Shown here: positions 1-9,513 of the stretch, in pieces
Layout of the letters: every line of letters starts with the position of its first letter
Position numbering within the stretch: the stretch's first letter is position 1
Assembly: GCF_002161675.1 (NCBI RefSeq)
Contig: NZ_NFIH01000012.1
Coordinates: 1 to 64,000 of the forward strand
Length of the DNA stretch: 64,000 nucleotides
Direction: 5' to 3'
Origin: Pseudoflavonifractor sp. An44
Lineage (GTDB): Bacteria > Bacillota > Clostridia > Oscillospirales > Oscillospiraceae
Program-made: the position numbers and the translations under genes
Notes under the pieces: generated by a model
Database searches by the model: none
What the model was told of the DNA's origin: nothing
The model's input: the letters and a program-made list of their open reading frames with translations, nothing else

Positions 1-59
1 CTACGGCCCCACCGCACAAAACAAAATAAAATCATTGGGGTTTCAAAAGGGGCGGGCCC

Positions 60-165
60 CTTTTGTGGCTTTTCGTCCATTTTGGCCAGTCAAAATGGAC
101 CCCAGCGGAGCGTCCCCGGGCGGGGCGCTGGTCTGCGCCTGAGAAATTGGAGAAGAGCAATCTCT
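60..165 (+). repeat. partial copy of a dispersed intergenic repeat (R1, 3' end)
   Basis: This stretch contains the inverted repeat TCCATTTTGGCC / GTCAAAATGGA followed by CCCAGCGGAGCGTCCC and a GCGCCTGAGAAAT block. The same pieces recur near 24480-24520 (opposite strand) and 59330-59545. It carries no gene. It looks like the right-hand end of the larger repeat described at 24480-24725. Confidence 0.7.
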
Positions 166-193
166 CAGTTTGCCCTGCGGGTAGTGGAAGCAA

Positions 194-233
194 CAAAAAA
201 CCGGAGAAGCAGAAGATTTCTGCCTCTCCGGTC
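194..233 (-). terminator. intrinsic terminator of the murE-argB fusion gene
   Basis: A 15-bp stem (200-214 with 218-232, one wobble pair) is followed on the minus strand by six T residues. It lies 17 bases past the stop codon of the fusion gene. Confidence 0.85.
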
Positions 234-249
234 GGTTTTTATTTGGCTT

Positions 250-2619
250 TTAGGGCGTGAGAATGGTGCCGGACACCCGCTGGTGCAGCACATCCAGCAG
301 CAGCACGTGCTCACAGTGTCCGTCCAAGATGGACACCTCGCCCACGCCGCTCTCCAGGGCGTGGAGGCAGCCCTGGACCTTGGGCACCATGCCCCCGGCG
401 ATGAGGCCGGCGTCCATGAGCTCTCTGGCCCGCTGGGCGTCCATGTGGGCCACGGCGGTCTTGGTGTTGTGGCTGTCAATGAGGATGCCTCCCACATCGG
501 TGAGGAACACCAGACGGTGGGCGTGGAGGGCCTCGGCGATGGCCTGGGCGGCGTCGTCGGCGTTGCAGTTGTACCCGGCCCCGTCGCCCCCGGCGATGGG
601 GGAGATGACGGGGAGGAAGCCAGCCCCCAGCAGAGTCTCCAGCAGGCGGGTGTCCACCTGGGTGATCTGACCCACCCGGCCCAGGGCGGGGTTCTTGCAC
701 TGGGCGGTGATGAGGTGGCCGTCCTTGCCGGACACACCCACCGCCGCCACGTCCAAATCGTTCAGGGCGGAGACAATGGACTTGTTCACCTGGGCGGACA
801 GGGCCATCTCCGCCACCCCCAGGGCGGCGTCGTCGGTGACCCGGTAGCCGTTTTCAAAGTGGGTGGGAACGTTGAGCCGCTCCAGCAGGGCGGTGATGTT
901 CTTGCCGCCGCCGTGGACCAGCACCACCCGCAGGCCCGCCATTTGCAGAGTGGCCACGTCCTGGAGGATGGAGTCCACCGCGCCGTCGGGGCCCAGGGCG
1001 GAGCCGCCGTACTTCACCACCACGGTCTGGCCTGCCATCTCCTTGAGGGCGGGGAGGACGGAGGAGATGGAGCGCACCTTCTCCAGGCCGTCCAGGCCGT
1101 GAATCACGTCATATTCTTGCAGGAAGGTCTTGGAGTAATCCACATCCGAGGGGGTGTCGATGTACTCCAGGCCCCGCTTCTGCCGGGTCTCTGCCCCCTT
1201 ACCGGTGATGAGAATCACGGTGGGCTTGTCGCAGCCCAAAATGGCCTGGCGAATGGCCTCGCCCCGGTTGGGCTGAATCTCATAGGCGCAGCCCTGCTCG
1301 GCCACATGGGTGGCGATCTCCTGGCAGATGGACACGGTGTCCTCCTCGCCGGAGTCCTCCTCAGTGAGCACCACCAGGTCGGAGTATTTGCCGGACACCT
1401 CACCCAGATCACGGCGGCGGTCCAGGGCCTTTTTGCCGGGACAGCCGAACACGGTGACAATGCGCCGCCCGGGGTACTCCTCCAGCACGGACTTGAACAG
1501 GGTCTCAAAGCTCATGCGGTTGTGGGCGTAGTCCACAATGGCGGTGATGTGGTCGTTGGCGTTGGTGTACACCTCCATGCGGCCGGGCACTCGGGCCTTC
1601 ATGAGGCCCACATAGATGCACTGCTGGGGGATGCCCAGGGCGTGGCACACGGCGATGGCGGCCAGGGCGTTCTCGGTGTTGAAGAGGCCCGGCATGGTCA
1701 GCTGGAACTCCCGGGACTGGCCCCCGGCGATGGTGACCCGGAAGATAATGTCGTTGCCCCGCTTGCGGATGTGGGAGCCGTACACGTCCGCCTTGGGGTT
1801 GGTGCGGGAGAAGGTGACCACCCGGCGGCAGTCCCGGCGGGCGGCCTCTTCCACCCGGTCGGCGTGGTCACAGTCCAGGTTGACGCAGGACACCTCCGCC
1901 TGGGCGAAGATCTTCAGCTTGGACTGGAAGTAGTCCTCAAAGTCGGGGTGCTCGATGGGGGAGATGTGGTCGGTGCCGATGTTCAAAAAACAGGCGGCGG
2001 CAAACCGGGTGCCCAGGGTGCGGTGGTACTTGAGCGCCTGGGAGGACACCTCCATGGTGAGATACCCCAGCCCCGAGGCCAGGGCATTGGCGAAGTGCTT
2101 TTGCAGCTCCAGAGGCTCGGGGGTGGTGAGGTGGGACTCGAACTCCTCCACGCCGTCGTAGGTGTCAATGGAGGAGATGACCCCGCAGCGCACCTTCCGG
2201 CTGGACAGATACTCGTCCAGGATATACTTGAGGTAGTAGGTGGTGGAGGACTTGCCCTTGGTTCCGGTGATGCCGATGACGTTCAGCAGCCGAGAGGGGT
2301 CATTGTAGTACAGCACCGCAAAGGGGGCGATGACCTGGCGCATGTCGGTGACATGGATGCAGGGCAGGTCCACCTCCGGGTAGGGGGTCTCACTGACATA
2401 GGCGAAAGCGCCCCGGTCGGCGGCCTGCTGCAGGTACTCGGGGCGGAAGTGGGCGCCCTTACACAGAAACAGGGTGCCGGGGACGACATTTTTGGAGTCG
2501 TAGGACACCAGCTCCACGGTGCGGGACAGGTCCAGCCCTGCGGGCAGGGGGGCGGCCAGTAGGTTTTTGGTGGTGAGGAGGGAGGTGTACTCCCCCAGGG
2601 AATATTTGGTCAGATTCAT
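250..2619 (-). CDS. murE/argB: MurE-type Mur ligase fused to acetylglutamate kinase (ArgB)
   Basis: A 789-aa protein with two complete enzyme halves. Residues about 1-505 are a MurE-type ligase (ADP-forming addition of the third stem-peptide amino acid to UDP-MurNAc-L-Ala-D-Glu). It has a P-loop GTKGKSS near residue 118, TTPEPLELQ, and the Mur C-terminal domain with DYAHN and FGCPGKKA. Residues about 512-789 are an acetylglutamate kinase, the second step towards ornithine, with KYGGS, HGGGKN, GYRVTD, NCNADDAA and GGMVPKV, so the kinase looks intact. The DNPR motif of diaminopimelate-adding MurE is replaced by EDSG around residue 421, which argues against DAP as substrate. The start is the ATG with GAGGTG seven bases upstream; upstream in-frame codons lack such a site. 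It is the last gene of a D-Asp ligase / racemase / fusion set. Both halves are clear by family motifs. Substrate choice is inference. Confidence 0.88.
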   Translation of the reverse strand: MNLTKYSLGEYTSLLTTKNLLAAPLPAGLDLSRTVELVSYDSKNVVPGTLFLCKGAHFRPEYLQQAADRGAFAYVSETPYPEVDLPCIHVTDMRQVIAPFAVLYYNDPSRLLNVIGITGTKGKSSTTYYLKYILDEYLSSRKVRCGVISSIDTYDGVEEFESHLTTPEPLELQKHFANALASGLGYLTMEVSSQALKYHRTLGTRFAAACFLNIGTDHISPIEHPDFEDYFQSKLKIFAQAEVSCVNLDCDHADRVEEAARRDCRRVVTFSRTNPKADVYGSHIRKRGNDIIFRVTIAGGQSREFQLTMPGLFNTENALAAIAVCHALGIPQQCIYVGLMKARVPGRMEVYTNANDHITAIVDYAHNRMSFETLFKSVLEEYPGRRIVTVFGCPGKKALDRRRDLGEVSGKYSDLVVLTEEDSGEEDTVSICQEIATHVAEQGCAYEIQPNRGEAIRQAILGCDKPTVILITGKGAETRQKRGLEYIDTPSDVDYSKTFLQEYDVIHGLDGLEKVRSISSVLPALKEMAGQTVVVKYGGSALGPDGAVDSILQDVATLQMAGLRVVLVHGGGKNITALLERLNVPTHFENGYRVTDDAALGVAEMALSAQVNKSIVSALNDLDVAAVGVSGKDGHLITAQCKNPALGRVGQITQVDTRLLETLLGAGFLPVISPIAGGDGAGYNCNADDAAQAIAEALHAHRLVFLTDVGGILIDSHNTKTAVAHMDAQRARELMDAGLIAGGMVPKVQGCLHALESGVGEVSILDGHCEHVLLLDVLHQRVSGTILTP

Positions 2620-2640
2620 ATCTAGACACCTCGATGATCG

Positions 2641-2795
2641 TCTTGGCAATGCCAGCATTGCCAAGAGAGAGTTGCAGCCCGCTGCGTCGCACGCGCAAAC
2701 GCGCACGCTTGCGGGCTGAGAAGTGTATTTTCCCATGCGCATGTCCTGGGAAAATACGTGATTTCAATTGATTTCCCCGCCTGCGGGCGGGGAAA
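2641..2795. repeat. three successive hairpins between racemase and murE-argB
   Basis: Perfect stems are TCTTGGCAATG (2641-2651 with 2656-2666), GTATTTTCCCA (2725-2735 with 2747-2757) and TTTCCCCGCC (2772-2781 with 2786-2795). A weaker GC-rich palindrome lies between the first two. The last stem could act as a weak terminator or mRNA stabiliser after the racemase gene, but it lacks a clear T-tract. Confidence 0.6.
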
Positions 2796-2827
2796 CTCTG
2801 CCGAGGGCTTTTTGGCCTACGGGGAAA

Positions 2828-3532
2828 TTAAATGGTGCGCAGCTGGTAGCCGCAGCGGGTGACGGCAGTCTCCGCCAACACCTCCATGGCATCCACATAG
2901 AAGGGGGGCAAGTTGTGGTAGGTGCGGAACACGGACAGCTCGGTGCAGGCCAGAATGGCGCAGTCACACCCGGCCTGACGCATGGCTTTGTCGATGGCGG
3001 CGAACTTCTCCCGGCTGCCCCGCTCGCCCTGCTTGATCTCGTCGTAGATAATGGACATCACCAGGGCCTGAATGGCGGCATCCGGGGCCACAGCCTCCAG
3101 CCCGTATTGGGCGCAGGCGGCCTGGTATAGCCCGGACTGGATGGTGCCGTCGGTGGCCAGAATGGCGGGACGGCGTCGGCCCTGGGCGTAGATGGCGGCG
3201 GCGGTCTCCCGAATCATGTGGAGAATGGGGGTGTGAAGCTCCCCTTGCAGCTTGTCCACAAAGTAGTGGGAGGTGTTGCAGGGGATGGCGATGGCGGTGC
3301 AGCCGCAGTCCTCCAGCAGCTTGGCGTCTCGAAGCAGCCGCTCATACAGGGCTTGGGTGTGCCCGGAAAGGATGGCGGCGGTGCGGTCGGGCATTTTGGT
3401 GTCGGACAGGATGAGAGTGGGCAGGTGCTCCTGGTCACAGCTGGCCTCGGTGCGGTCCAGCACATATTGATAGAAGACCTGGGTGGCCTGGGGGCCCATG
3501 CCCCCCAAAATGCCCAGCTTTTGTTCAGTCAT
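2828..3532 (-). CDS. aspartate/glutamate racemase family protein
   Basis: A 234-aa PLP-independent amino-acid racemase of the aspartate racemase type. The N-terminus has the family signature LGILGGMGPQAT. The two catalytic cysteines sit in PCNTSHYF (about residue 83) and ACTELS (about residue 193). Family length is about 230 aa, so it is complete. It follows the ATP-grasp ligase by 14 bases on the same strand. In Enterococcus faecium an aspartate racemase gene is paired with the D-aspartate ligase gene aslfm. By analogy this enzyme probably supplies D-aspartate to its neighbour. Glutamate or another acidic amino acid cannot be excluded from sequence alone. Confidence 0.85.
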   Translation of the reverse strand: MTEQKLGILGGMGPQATQVFYQYVLDRTEASCDQEHLPTLILSDTKMPDRTAAILSGHTQALYERLLRDAKLLEDCGCTAIAIPCNTSHYFVDKLQGELHTPILHMIRETAAAIYAQGRRRPAILATDGTIQSGLYQAACAQYGLEAVAPDAAIQALVMSIIYDEIKQGERGSREKFAAIDKAMRQAGCDCAILACTELSVFRTYHNLPPFYVDAMEVLAETAVTRCGYQLRTI

Positions 3533-3546
3533 ATTTGGAATCTCCC

Positions 3547-4764
3547 TTAGTTCTGGGGCTTTTTGCAGTACTGGCGGAAGCGGTGGATGTTGCCGATGTG
3601 GTTTTTCCACACCCGCAGGACTCGGCCCAGAGTGTAGTCGGGGCGGTACTCCATGGAGTGGTGGTCGGCCCCGGCCCGGATGAGGGCCTTCATCTGGGGG
3701 TGATAGTTCTTGGGGATGAACTCGTAGGCCAGAACCCGGGGAATCATCCGCCACAGGCTCTGGTTTTTCACCACGGTGAGGGGCAGGTCCTTGCCCTCGA
3801 TGAGATCCCCCACCAGGTAGGTGGCGATGTTGTGCCCCGACCCGGTGACATAGTAGTTGGAGCGGCCCTGGCGGCAGTTGATCTCAAAGGCCTTGTACTT
3901 GCCGTCCCGCTGGTCGTACTTGATGTCGAAGTTGGAGAAGCCCACGTACCCCAGGTCCTCCAGCATCCCCCGAATCTTGTCGCACAGCTCCTGCTGGTGC
4001 TCGGTGATGATGACGGCATGGTTGCCGATGCCGTGGGGGGAGTGCTCCTCCAGCAGCACGTGGCCCAGGCACATGAGCTTGACCTTGCCGTGCTGGTCGG
4101 AGTAGTTGGTCAGTACCCGCATGTAGGTGTCGTCCCCGGGAATGAACTCCTGGAGAATCATTTTGCCCGGATACCCGGCGGCGTACACCTCGTCCAGGGC
4201 GGCCAGCAGGTCCTCCCAGGTGTCGCACAGGTACACCTTCTTCAGCTCCCGGTGTCCGGTGGCCCAGTAGGCCACGCCGTCGGCGGGCTTGGCGATGTAG
4301 GGGGCGCCGAAGGGGGGCTTAAAGTCGTGGCCCATCTCTTTGGAGTAGACAAAGGTGGTGGGGTGGTCGATGCCGTAGCGGTCACACAGGGCGTAGAACT
4401 GCTCTTTGTCGGTGAGCTGGTCCAGCATCTCCCCGGAGATGTAGTTGCACTTGACGTTTTCGGGGAACTTGTCTTTCAGGTGGGCGGCCAGCTTCACATA
4501 GCTGTCGCCGCAGCCGATGACCAGCACCGTCTTGGGGTGTACTTCCCGGGCCACGTCGGTGACGTTTTTCAAAAAGGCGTCGGCGTCTTCATTCTCCAGA
4601 CAGGGGCGGTAGTCGATGATGGAGGAGAAGGCGCAGGGGAAGGTGGCGGCGAACTTGCCAAAGGCAATGCTCTTCACCCCATAGGCCTCGTGGAAGGCCC
4701 GGGCCACGCTGTATACGTTGATGTCCCCGCCGAAGAGCAGGGGCTGGAAGGAACAGGTTTCCAT
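3547..4764 (-). CDS. ATP-grasp D-aspartate ligase (Aslfm-like)
   Basis: A 405-aa ATP-grasp ligase. From memory it follows the Enterococcus faecium D-aspartate ligase closely: an N-terminal NVYSVARAFHEAYG block, VIGCGDSY, then FIPGDDTYMRV and MCLGHVLLEE in the ATP-grasp core, and the metal-binding end FEINCRQGRSNYY. Aslfm adds D-Asp to the side-chain amine of residue 3 of cytoplasmic UDP-MurNAc-pentapeptide, starting a cross-bridge. The ATG at 4764 was chosen because AAGGAG lies about ten bases upstream; a TTG at 4794 would be the longer alternative. It is first in a minus-strand set with the racemase and the MurE-ArgB fusion, which supports a cell-wall precursor role. The exact acceptor (Lys, Orn or other) is not visible in the sequence. 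Confidence 0.82.
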   Translation of the reverse strand: METCSFQPLLFGGDINVYSVARAFHEAYGVKSIAFGKFAATFPCAFSSIIDYRPCLENEDADAFLKNVTDVAREVHPKTVLVIGCGDSYVKLAAHLKDKFPENVKCNYISGEMLDQLTDKEQFYALCDRYGIDHPTTFVYSKEMGHDFKPPFGAPYIAKPADGVAYWATGHRELKKVYLCDTWEDLLAALDEVYAAGYPGKMILQEFIPGDDTYMRVLTNYSDQHGKVKLMCLGHVLLEEHSPHGIGNHAVIITEHQQELCDKIRGMLEDLGYVGFSNFDIKYDQRDGKYKAFEINCRQGRSNYYVTGSGHNIATYLVGDLIEGKDLPLTVVKNQSLWRMIPRVLAYEFIPKNYHPQMKALIRAGADHHSMEYRPDYTLGRVLRVWKNHIGNIHRFRQYCKKPQN

Positions 4765-7440: not shown

Positions 7441-9513
7441 TTATCCCAAATCGTGGCGGAGCTGGCGCATCATGCCCGCCTGCTCCAAGTCCACCTTCTC
7501 CCGGGGGCGGCACAGCCGCACCGTGGCCTGCTGGTTTTGCACCGCCACCTGGATGAGCCCCCGCTCATCCATCACGTGCAGGCACACCAGGGCCTTGCCG
7601 TAGGAGCGGTGGCCGGAAAAGCTGCGGGTGACTTGGCGCAGCAGCTGGTCCATGGGGGCCTGGGCGGGCCCGGCGGCGCACAGCTGCTCCAAATACCGCC
7701 ACAGGTGGGCAAAGTCCCGGCGCTGGGGGAGCATCAGAGACGCCTCCCAGGGGGACAGGGTCTCCCCGGCCTGGAGCCGACGGAACAGGGAGCGCTCCAG
7801 CTGGGAGCGGGTGGGGGCGGGGCGCAGGTCGCACAGCTGCAATTGCACCGTGCGGTTGCCCCGGAACTGATTGATCTGTAACGTAAAGGCAATATCCAGC
7901 CGCTGGCCGTTTTCAATGCCGCAGGCGGCGGTGTTGGCGGAAAAGAAGATGGCGTCCATGGCCACCCCGTCCCGGCGCAGCCTCAATTTCAGGTGGCGGC
8001 CGCCCCCCACATCCGTGTGGGAGAGTACACACACCGAGCGCAGCAGAAACACCGGCTTGGGGTTGCCCGAGCCGAAGGGCTCCAGCAGGGACAGAGACTC
8101 TACGTCCTGGGTGGACAGCAGGGAACAGTGGGGAATCTCACAGTCCACGTCCAGGGAGGACTCCATGGGCTGGTGTCCGGCAAACTCCTCCACCAGCTGA
8201 CACAGGGCAGCGCGGAAGGCGGGGATGTTGTTCCGCCGGATGGAAAAGCCCGCGGCCAACTCGTGGCCGCCGTAGCTGTCCAGCAGAGGGGCGCAGCGCT
8301 CCAGAGCGCCGAACAGGTTGAAGCCGCCGAAGGAGCGGCAGGAGCCCTTGCCCTTGTCCCCGTCCAGGCTGATCATAAAGGCGGGGCAGGCGTATTTCTC
8401 CGCCAGCCGGGAGGCCACAATGCCGATGACCCCCTGGTGCCAGCCCTCCCCCGCCAGCACAATCACCGGGGCGGACAGGGCTGGGGTGTGGGTCAGCAGC
8501 TGGTCGCAGTGCTGGAAAATCTCCAATTCAATGGCCTGACGCAGGCGGTTGAGCTGGCACAGCTCCTGGGCCAGCTCCTGCCCCCGCTGGGGGTCCTGGG
8601 TGAGCAGCAGCTCCAGGGCGGTGCCCGCCTGCTCCATGCGCCCGGCGGCGTTGATGCGGGGGGCCAGGCCATAGCCGATGGTGACGGTGGTGGGCACCTG
8701 TCCCCGGGGGCAGCCCGCCTCCCGCAGCAGGGCCTGGAGGCCGGGGCGGGAGCAGTCGGCCAGCCGTTCCAGCCCCAAATGGACCAGGGCCCGGTTTTCT
8801 CCTTGCAGGAGCATCACGTCCGCCACTGTGCCGATGGCGGCCAGCTCCCCGTAGTCCAGCAGCACCTGGGGGCGCTGGGCCGGGGCGGTGAGGGCCAGGG
8901 CCAGCTTTAACGCCACCCCCACACCCGCCAGATCGGGGAAGGGGTAGGAGCAGTCGGGGCGGCGGGGGTCCACCACCGCCACGGCCTGGGGCAGGACCTC
9001 TTTGCACTGGTGGTGGTCGGTGATGACCACGTCCACCCCCAGGGCCCGGGCGTACTCCACCTCCTGGGCGGCGGTGATGCCGCAGTCCACCGTGACAATC
9101 AAGGTGACCCCCTGGCGGGCCAGGGCGTCAATGGCGTGGTTGTTCAGGCCGTACCCCTCTTCGGTACGGTCTGGGATGTAGCTGACCACCTGGCCACCCA
9201 GCGTGCGGAGAAACTGAGTGAGCAGACAGGTGGCGGTGATGCCGTCCACGTCGTAGTCGCCGTAGACGGCGACGGTCTCTTGCTCCCGGATGGCCCGGGA
9301 AATGCGCTCCACGGCCTTCTCCATATCCCGCAGGAGAAAGGGGTCGTGGAGCAGGTTGGGGCCATGGGCCAAAAAGGCCGAGGCCGCTGGGGCGGTGTCC
9401 ACCCCCCGGGCACACAAAACGGCGGCGCACAAGGGGGGTAACCCTGCCCGTTCCAGCTCCGCCCTGGACCCGGCTGGGCCGCTGGGGCGGAGATTCCACC
9501 GATCATACTTCAT
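7441..9513 (-). CDS. recJ: single-stranded-DNA-specific exonuclease RecJ
   Basis: A 690-aa 5'-3' single-strand exonuclease of the DHH family used in recombination and mismatch repair. The N-terminal metal motif GDYDVDGIT is near residue 83 and the DHH motif (TDHHQCKE) near residue 166. DHHA1 (GEGWHQGVIGIVASR, then GGHELAAGFS) and an OB-like C-terminal part follow. RecJ from Firmicutes ranges from about 570 to 790 aa. The start ATG has AAGGAA about nine bases upstream. It is divergent from lexA, with 178 bases between the two starts. Confidence 0.96.
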   Translation of the reverse strand: MKYDRWNLRPSGPAGSRAELERAGLPPLCAAVLCARGVDTAPAASAFLAHGPNLLHDPFLLRDMEKAVERISRAIREQETVAVYGDYDVDGITATCLLTQFLRTLGGQVVSYIPDRTEEGYGLNNHAIDALARQGVTLIVTVDCGITAAQEVEYARALGVDVVITDHHQCKEVLPQAVAVVDPRRPDCSYPFPDLAGVGVALKLALALTAPAQRPQVLLDYGELAAIGTVADVMLLQGENRALVHLGLERLADCSRPGLQALLREAGCPRGQVPTTVTIGYGLAPRINAAGRMEQAGTALELLLTQDPQRGQELAQELCQLNRLRQAIELEIFQHCDQLLTHTPALSAPVIVLAGEGWHQGVIGIVASRLAEKYACPAFMISLDGDKGKGSCRSFGGFNLFGALERCAPLLDSYGGHELAAGFSIRRNNIPAFRAALCQLVEEFAGHQPMESSLDVDCEIPHCSLLSTQDVESLSLLEPFGSGNPKPVFLLRSVCVLSHTDVGGGRHLKLRLRRDGVAMDAIFFSANTAACGIENGQRLDIAFTLQINQFRGNRTVQLQLCDLRPAPTRSQLERSLFRRLQAGETLSPWEASLMLPQRRDFAHLWRYLEQLCAAGPAQAPMDQLLRQVTRSFSGHRSYGKALVCLHVMDERGLIQVAVQNQQATVRLCRPREKVDLEQAGMMRQLRHDLG

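Follow-up and report, generated by a model that had tools for sequence, protein, structure and literature searches.

The 64,000-nucleotide stretch of the Pseudoflavonifractor sp. An44 genome analyzed here (the window) is contig 4 of 51 in an assembly of 2.75 Mb with 100% completeness. It carries a three-gene cassette which, judging from sequence comparisons, probably directs a second, A4-type (lysine or ornithine)-D-aspartate branch of peptidoglycan synthesis beside the branch based on diaminopimelic acid (DAP). Open reading frames (ORFs) for an ATP-grasp ligase, an Asp/Glu-family racemase, and a fusion of the ligase MurE with the N-acetylglutamate (NAG) kinase ArgB were located in a row on the minus strand at 250–4764. 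The claim of three adjacent genes on one strand made in the first-pass annotation is therefore upheld, with the racemase and the fusion assigned to their families by Pfam and NCBIfam. The cassette represents known parts in a new arrangement:

3547–4764, minus strand: ATP-grasp ligase, Aslfm/AslA-like, predicted D-aspartate ligase (homology to lactobacilli, ATP-grasp model)
2828–3535, minus strand: Asp/Glu-family racemase (TIGR00035), predicted aspartate racemase (Pfam/NCBIfam, PDB match 1jfl, Cys motifs)
250–2619, minus strand: MurE-ArgB fusion protein, 789 aa from the likely start (Pfam, NCBIfam, relatives, model)
1108–2619, minus strand: MurE domain, Lys/Orn-type (no DNPR; tree)
1342–1365, minus strand: MurE specificity motif TEEDSGEE replacing T.DNPR.E (alignment)
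253–1092, minus strand: ArgB (NAG kinase) domain (TIGR00761, PDB sequence matches, catalytic residues)
274–294, minus strand: lost arginine site, with Asp at the Glu-281 equivalent (292–294) and Val at the Gly-287 equivalent (274–276)

The product of the cassette would be an alternative peptidoglycan precursor of the A4 type. The racemase would make D-Asp, and the ATP-grasp ligase would activate it and couple it to the side-chain amine of the third residue, yielding a D-Asp bridge. The fused ArgB domain would act as a NAG kinase free of arginine feedback that keeps carbon moving to ornithine, with the ordinary ArgB serving arginine, and a separate MurE with the DNPR motif would produce the precursor with DAP, plausibly destined for the spore cortex. 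From the genes, motifs, residue states, co-occurrence, and gene order observed, we infer the substrates, enzyme activities, arginine insensitivity, and timing in this scheme, including the choice of ornithine over lysine and of growing cells over spores. The explanation as a whole, combining an A4-type cassette, an ornithine-committing feedback-free kinase, and a separate DAP MurE, is the one towards which we lean.

The two MurE types and their association with the ligase

The fusion ORF spans 250–2742 (830 codons), with a probable start at ATG 2619, where the alignment of close relatives begins. Mur_ligase_M, Mur_ligase_C, and AA_kinase domains were found within this single ORF (and Asp_Glu_race in the racemase), and the protein exceeded the NCBIfam cut-offs of both murE (TIGR01085) and argB (TIGR00761). 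The structural model had a mean pLDDT of 87.2 and a pTM of 0.63, and because of the latter value the domain arrangement is uncertain. Fusions 95%–98% identical were present in records of Pseudoflavonifractor sp. An85, P. capillosus An386a, and Candidatus Enterenecus avicola. [Clostridium] viride DSM 6836 also encodes a full fusion. Relatives were counted in two draws of 150 family genomes, one searched with the fusion and one with the ligase, whose handles agree and which represent the same draw as far as shown; in addition, a search with the fusion alignment gave 341 loci, of which the best 80 were analyzed as named loci. A second MurE, counted at ≥48% identity, was present in 32 of the 150 genomes: as a full fusion in 13, with a decayed kinase in one (G128), and unfused in 18. 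An ArgB match lay in the ORF of MurE in 65 of the 80 named loci, including two (L106 and L137) cut by contig ends. Together with the 13 full fusions among the family genomes, this indicates that the fusion is not a chance artefact.

In DAP-type MurE, the Asn and Arg of the DNPR motif hold the DAP carboxylate, and the Staphylococcus aureus enzyme has DNPA instead (excerpts of PMC3829189). The Arg was missing in the second MurEs: all 80 named loci had TEED(S/P/A)G, and the unfused family members (n = 18) had TEDDP(G/A) in 14 cases, with one motif partly unread and three others containing Glu; DNPR was not found in any second MurE read. A separate partner MurE was encoded in all 32 genomes with a second MurE and carried DNPR in all 30 that were read. 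A single MurE of altered specificity had also been considered and was rejected, since each of the 32 genomes contains two MurEs (the second of G050 being a fragment). In the midpoint-rooted FastTree phylogeny, 34 DNPR rows (including two repeats) split from the second MurEs with a support of 1.0, and the latter grouped with MurEs of Enterococcus faecalis, L. curvatus, Vescimonas, and Collinsella. The tree gave weak support (0.69) for the fusion having arisen once.

The S. aureus MurE meets the lysine amine with Asp-406 and Glu-460 and uses L-ornithine with a 400-fold lower specificity; introduction of Arg into it gave no DAP activity, so the motif is only part of the story (excerpts of PMC3829189). 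With no DNPR and an acidic residue at the Asp-406 position, the MurE domain in the window has the features of a Lys/Orn-type enzyme. This position is occupied by Asp in E. faecalis, L. curvatus, and the main unfused clade and by Glu in the fused clade, where the longer side chain could plausibly reach the shorter ornithine. Three genomes (G034, G014, and G116) with an unfused MurE had no argB above the cut-off and no argJ match; the residue is Asp in two of them and unread in the third, in weak agreement with the ornithine idea.

Several observations weigh against this assignment. The L-lysine ligase equivalog NF010628 was missed (323.3 bits against a cut-off of 536), as was the best DAP equivalog NF001129 (340.9 against 762); since both the Lys and the DAP models were missed, the equivalogs do not decide MurE specificity. 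The unfused loci L059, L061, and L073 likewise have Glu at the Asp-406 position, as does Collinsella (whose wall type was not settled by the literature search), and this residue therefore does not track the kinase exactly. Finally, two MurEs on Deinococcus plasmids have TEADHR, and Deinococcus is an ornithine-walled genus.

The ligase was present in all 32 genomes with a second MurE vs 4 of the 118 others (G005, G071, G115, and G121); conversely, a second MurE was found in 32 of 36 genomes with the ligase vs none of 114 ligase-free ones (Fisher's p = 1.3e-28, with relatedness ignored; the ligase search did not list 94 genomes without a match). The first-pass annotation had proposed conserved co-occurrence of the three genes in Oscillospiraceae as a check, and these counts support it for the ligase and the second MurE. 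Ligase, racemase, and MurE were grouped in 22 of the 32 genomes (the window and 21 of the 31 loci fetched); of the remaining loci, three had only ligase and MurE, one, at a contig end, had the racemase with MurE, and six had MurE alone. In G064, G068, and G143, the ligase and MurE lie on separate contigs, with other genes beside MurE, so the link between them is more than inherited synteny. Linkage to the ligase cannot be judged for G056 and G045, where MurE sits close to the end of a contig. The three genes stood together in 64 of the 80 named loci; some of the others were cut by contig ends and some (e.g., L131, L132, and L134) were not. Across the order, the ligase was found at E 1e-50 or better in 37 of 245 genomes.

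The four ligase genomes without a second MurE count against a strict pairing. Their ligases are 38%–43% identical (37%–38% at the loci L242–L244 and L248–L250 of G005, G071, and G115), and the MurE of these last three genomes, those that were read, has DNPR; these ligase relatives may therefore work on other stems, attaching D-Asp to another acceptor.

The ligase and the racemase

The ligase probably starts at ATG 4764, with AGGAG ahead of the start, and its ORF ends at 3547. Searches of Pfam (E 0.001) and of PDB sequences (E 1) returned nothing for it, and NCBIfam gave weak carbamoyl-phosphate-synthase-like matches far under the cut-off. The structural model, built from 22 sequences (mean pLDDT 88.6), matched ATP-grasp enzymes in PDB with TM-scores of about 0.5, namely, carbamoyl phosphate synthetase, PylC, and L-amino acid ligases. 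At this level of similarity, the modelled protein has the ATP-grasp fold of D-aspartate ligases. Tblastn revealed proteins of the lactobacilli L. fermentum (34%), L. curvatus, and L. crispatus with 34%–36% identity over 92%–95% of the length (E 2e-66 to 3e-67), annotated as carboxylate--amine ligases in the first two species and as hypothetical in L. crispatus, and a match of 46% in a Subdoligranulum variabile record. We take L. curvatus and L. crispatus to be D-Asp-walled, and the ligase is thus homologous over its full length to ligases of D-Asp-walled bacteria, these being the proteins aligned in place of Aslfm and AslA. Over 29 ligases, including three from lactobacilli, 47 positions were invariant. 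Next to the ligase gene, L. curvatus has an amino acid racemase gene, S. variabile a racemase match, and L. crispatus an asparagine synthase gene. According to excerpts of PMC4155827, D-Asp or D-Asn bridges occur in most lactobacilli, L. fermentum has L-ornithine, and AslA is an ATP-grasp enzyme acting via beta-aspartyl phosphate, encoded in Lactococcus lactis in the same operon as racD. Of the first-pass annotation as an Aslfm-like D-Asp ligase, the enzyme family is supported by the lactobacillar homology and the ATP-grasp model, and D-Asp as the substrate is a prediction from sequence.

The racemase exceeded the cut-off of NCBIfam asp_race (TIGR00035) and had aspartate racemase 1jfl as its best PDB match; both catalytic Cys patterns were found in 23 of 25 racemases, including that of the window. 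It also exceeded the cut-off of the cysteate racemase CuyB (197.5 vs 190), which weakens the assignment to aspartate. Together with the diversity of ATP-grasp enzymes, this would suit a pathway unrelated to the wall, in which the racemase and the ligase make a small D-Asp-containing peptide and the second MurE takes part. We regard such a pathway as highly improbable, given that the ligase is paired with MurE in 32 of 32 genomes and that its homologues occur in lactobacilli, mostly with D-Asp or D-Asn bridges.

In the loci L049, L050, L055, L057, L058, and L059, proteins of one cluster stand before the ligase; the sole member searched (L049:11078–12145) was alanine-racemase-like.

The fused ArgB domain

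The ArgB domain scored 228.2 against the TIGR00761 cut-off of 151.3, matched PDB sequences 2jj4 (216 bits) and 2bty (202 bits), and aligned with hexameric NAG kinases from the N-terminal helix onward. For comparison, 114 ArgB rows were reduced to 102 by removing identical sequences and those shorter than 240 aa. The resulting 67 fused domains are distinct but include close relatives, and the 35 standalone ArgBs are not a random sample (20 from genomes among the matches listed in the fusion search, the rest from the An44 genome, the fused genomes, G128, and G133). Equivalents of Lys-8, Gly-44, Gly-45, Arg-66, Asn-158, Asp-162, and Lys-217 (E. coli numbering), which we take to be the catalytic residues, were kept in all 67 fused domains. 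Thus, both the family score and the catalytic residues are those of a NAG kinase.

The arginine-binding triplet (Glu or Gln)-19, Glu-281, and Gly-287 was complete in none of the 67 fused domains vs 34 of 35 standalone ArgBs, and the fused domains therefore lack the signature of arginine-sensitive NAG kinases. Gly was found at the Gly-287 equivalent in 0 of 67 vs 34 of 35, Glu at the Glu-281 equivalent in 22 of 67 vs 35 of 35, and Glu at the Glu-19 equivalent in 5 of 67 vs 26 of 35 (the other nine having Gln). His at the His-268 equivalent, absent in all 67 and present in 10 of 35, was a poor discriminator. The positions were mapped by alignment to 2bty and 2buf and by spacings of 13 and 19 residues fitting H271/E284 and H268/G287, pairs listed among the mutations of the Corynebacterium glutamicum NAG kinase (excerpts of PMC10464499). 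In this organism, argB mutants including E19R, H268N, and G287D raised L-ornithine production (excerpts of PMC6962107), and the feedback positions changed in the fused domains appear to be those that engineers mutate for ornithine. In the midpoint-rooted tree, the fused domains clustered in a single clade that included none of the 35 standalone ArgBs, and the dN/dS ratio of nonsynonymous to synonymous substitutions was below 0.3 for both the MurE and ArgB domains in five sequence pairs.

Some points argue against a feedback-free ornithine supplier. The arginine-site positions were placed by alignment and spacing, with the C. glutamicum enzyme itself outside the alignment, and E19R, H268N, and G287D apparently have only moderate effects in the table of PMC10464499 (seen in excerpt). 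NAG kinase acts several steps before ornithine, and channelling to MurE is not evident. Moreover, 12 of the 80 named loci lack the kinase domain and three, Flintibacter muris DSM 110149 among them, have a truncated one, with the MurE motif unchanged; since these 15 loci keep MurE, the kinase is not essential to the branch.

The loss of the kinase domain in relatives would also fit a Lys-D-Asp branch in which L-lysine is the residue added by MurE and the fused ArgB, as a tag-along kinase or regulatory domain, takes no part in supplying the third residue. The grouping of MurE with the L. curvatus enzyme and that of E. faecalis, annotated as an L-lysine ligase, and the presence of a LysA-like gene in the An44 genome, under the cut-off, point the same way. 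A passive domain is at odds, however, with catalytic residues kept in 67 of 67, an erased feedback site, and purifying selection in the five pairs, and lysine with the replacement of Asp by Glu at the amine-binding position; on balance we consider this alternative unlikely. A new role of the domain on a nucleotide substrate rather than N-acetyl-L-Glu seems improbable. Loss of the arginine site is compatible with any new role, the domain is fused directly to a ligase acting on an N-acyl-Glu, and HGGGK beside the substrate loop in 64 of 67 fused domains, vs HGGGP in 35 of 35 standalone ones, may indicate an altered substrate. Still, the Arg-66 and Asn-158 equivalents, presumably NAG-binding, are unchanged in all 67, and the gamma-carboxyl is presumably activated by MurE itself.

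The An44 genome has consecutive argG, argH, argJ, argB, argD, and argF genes (argC was not looked for), and with this operon and its own argB, arginine synthesis is independent of the fusion. The idea that the fused ArgB is the sole NAG kinase was rejected, since a standalone ArgB above the cut-off was found in 12 of 13 fused genomes. It was not found in G037; argJ was matched in all 13, in G037 partially and under the cut-off. The ornithine-making kinase of the first-pass annotation thus stands in part: the domain keeps its catalytic residues and has lost the arginine site, but it is a second ArgB copy and would commit flux rather than yield ornithine as its product. Selectivity of S. aureus MurE for lysine rests on the cytoplasmic pool and not on enzyme specificity (excerpts of PMC3829189), and a fused feedback-free kinase would fit such a pool-driven choice. 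An arginine-insensitive ornithine supplier is, judged by these residues, the best single reading of the fused kinase, with the chances roughly even.

Two of the 35 standalone ArgB-like proteins, at L203:~5463 (G128) and L204:~1584 (G133), had no equivalents of Lys-8, Gly-44, Arg-66, Asn-158, and Asp-162, that is, of most catalytic residues, and kept those of Glu-281 and Gly-287. They are possible arginine-sensing pseudokinases.

The predicted DAP branch and known related systems

The An44 genome also encodes a DAP epimerase family protein, and its DNPR MurE sits at the start of contig 8. The window contig ends just past the fusion. In the close relative L091, the fusion is followed by a spacer of about 770 bases (8368–9137) and then by a DNPR MurE; part of this spacer recurs at window positions 1–250, where the contigs of the An44 genome break. 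The L091 layout, the shared spacer, and the position of MurE on contig 8 suggest that the DNPR MurE probably follows the fusion in An44 too. A tandem MurE downstream was found in 19 of the 80 named loci, with DNPR in all 19; the others were cut by contig ends or had none within reach. The DNPR MurE of other family members, in the four loci examined, adjoins a PASTA-bearing transpeptidase (4 of 4) and an MraY-family gene (3 of 4), and the gene order in Bacillus is spoVD-murE-mraY. SpoIVA was present in all 21 genomes tested, picked from the 32 by completeness. A D-Asp wall in growing cells and a DAP cortex would be a reasonable division by analogy; the tandem MurEs in the clade of the window could as well mean joint expression. 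For the first-pass proposal of a non-DAP stem with a D-Asp bridge beside a DAP wall, the motif and phylogeny of MurE, the homology of the ligase, the order of the genes, and their co-occurrence across genomes are favourable, and the wall itself is a prediction.

An intrinsic-terminator-like hairpin, a consensus match only, lies just 3' of the fusion:

199–233, minus strand: intrinsic-terminator-like hairpin

The whole 64-kb stretch contained 10 such sites vs 3.5 expected, and a promoter scan found none. Two protein clusters encoded upstream of the cassette recur in many relatives and were read by eye as RecJ-like and RelA/SpoT-like.

The cassette resembles E. faecium Aslfm and L. lactis AslA/RacD in its non-DAP MurE and in the ligase placed by an Asp-racemase gene (for L. 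lactis, excerpts of PMC4155827). It differs in the fusion of the second MurE to ArgB and the additional DAP-type MurE. Limosilactobacillus fermentum shares the ligase homologue (34%) and has an L-ornithine wall (excerpts of PMC4155827), but no MurE or ArgB match was found in the 17-kb stretch searched. The hexameric NAG kinases of Thermotoga maritima (2bty) and Pseudomonas aeruginosa (2buf) have the same N-terminal helix and catalytic residues; unlike them, the window domain is fused to MurE and has lost the arginine-site residues. Growing cells of Lysinibacillus sphaericus have a Lys-D-Asp wall and its spores a DAP cortex, and two MurE types and a spore marker likewise occur here, in a different clade. 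A Lys-D-Asp wall is given for the genus Lysinibacillus in excerpts of PMC10257616; a direct statement on the L. sphaericus cortex was not found in the literature search. This search, with most subscription journals outside it, found no report of a MurE-NAG kinase fusion. Among the papers listed, none was on a second MurE of this kind by title, and none was usable for the wall chemistry of Intestinimonas or Flavonifractor. A Streptacidiphilus genome-mining study (PMC7601586) reportedly mentions 'two murE genes'.

More tentatively, and with somewhat less than an even chance, the Oscillospiraceae may build two walls: a single bifunctional protein would commit glutamate to ornithine without arginine control and load the ornithine into one of them, while a DAP MurE, located by a sporulation-type penicillin-binding protein or in tandem with the fusion, would serve the cortex. 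Little is known of the wall types in this group of gut bacteria; the peptidoglycan table of PMC11382707 (seen in excerpt) has no entry for Oscillibacter. A Lys/Orn-D-Asp wall, if present, would alter the muropeptides released and the action of lysins and DAP-based assays, and a ligase fused to a feedback-free kinase would represent an unusual direct link between amino acid supply and wall chemistry.

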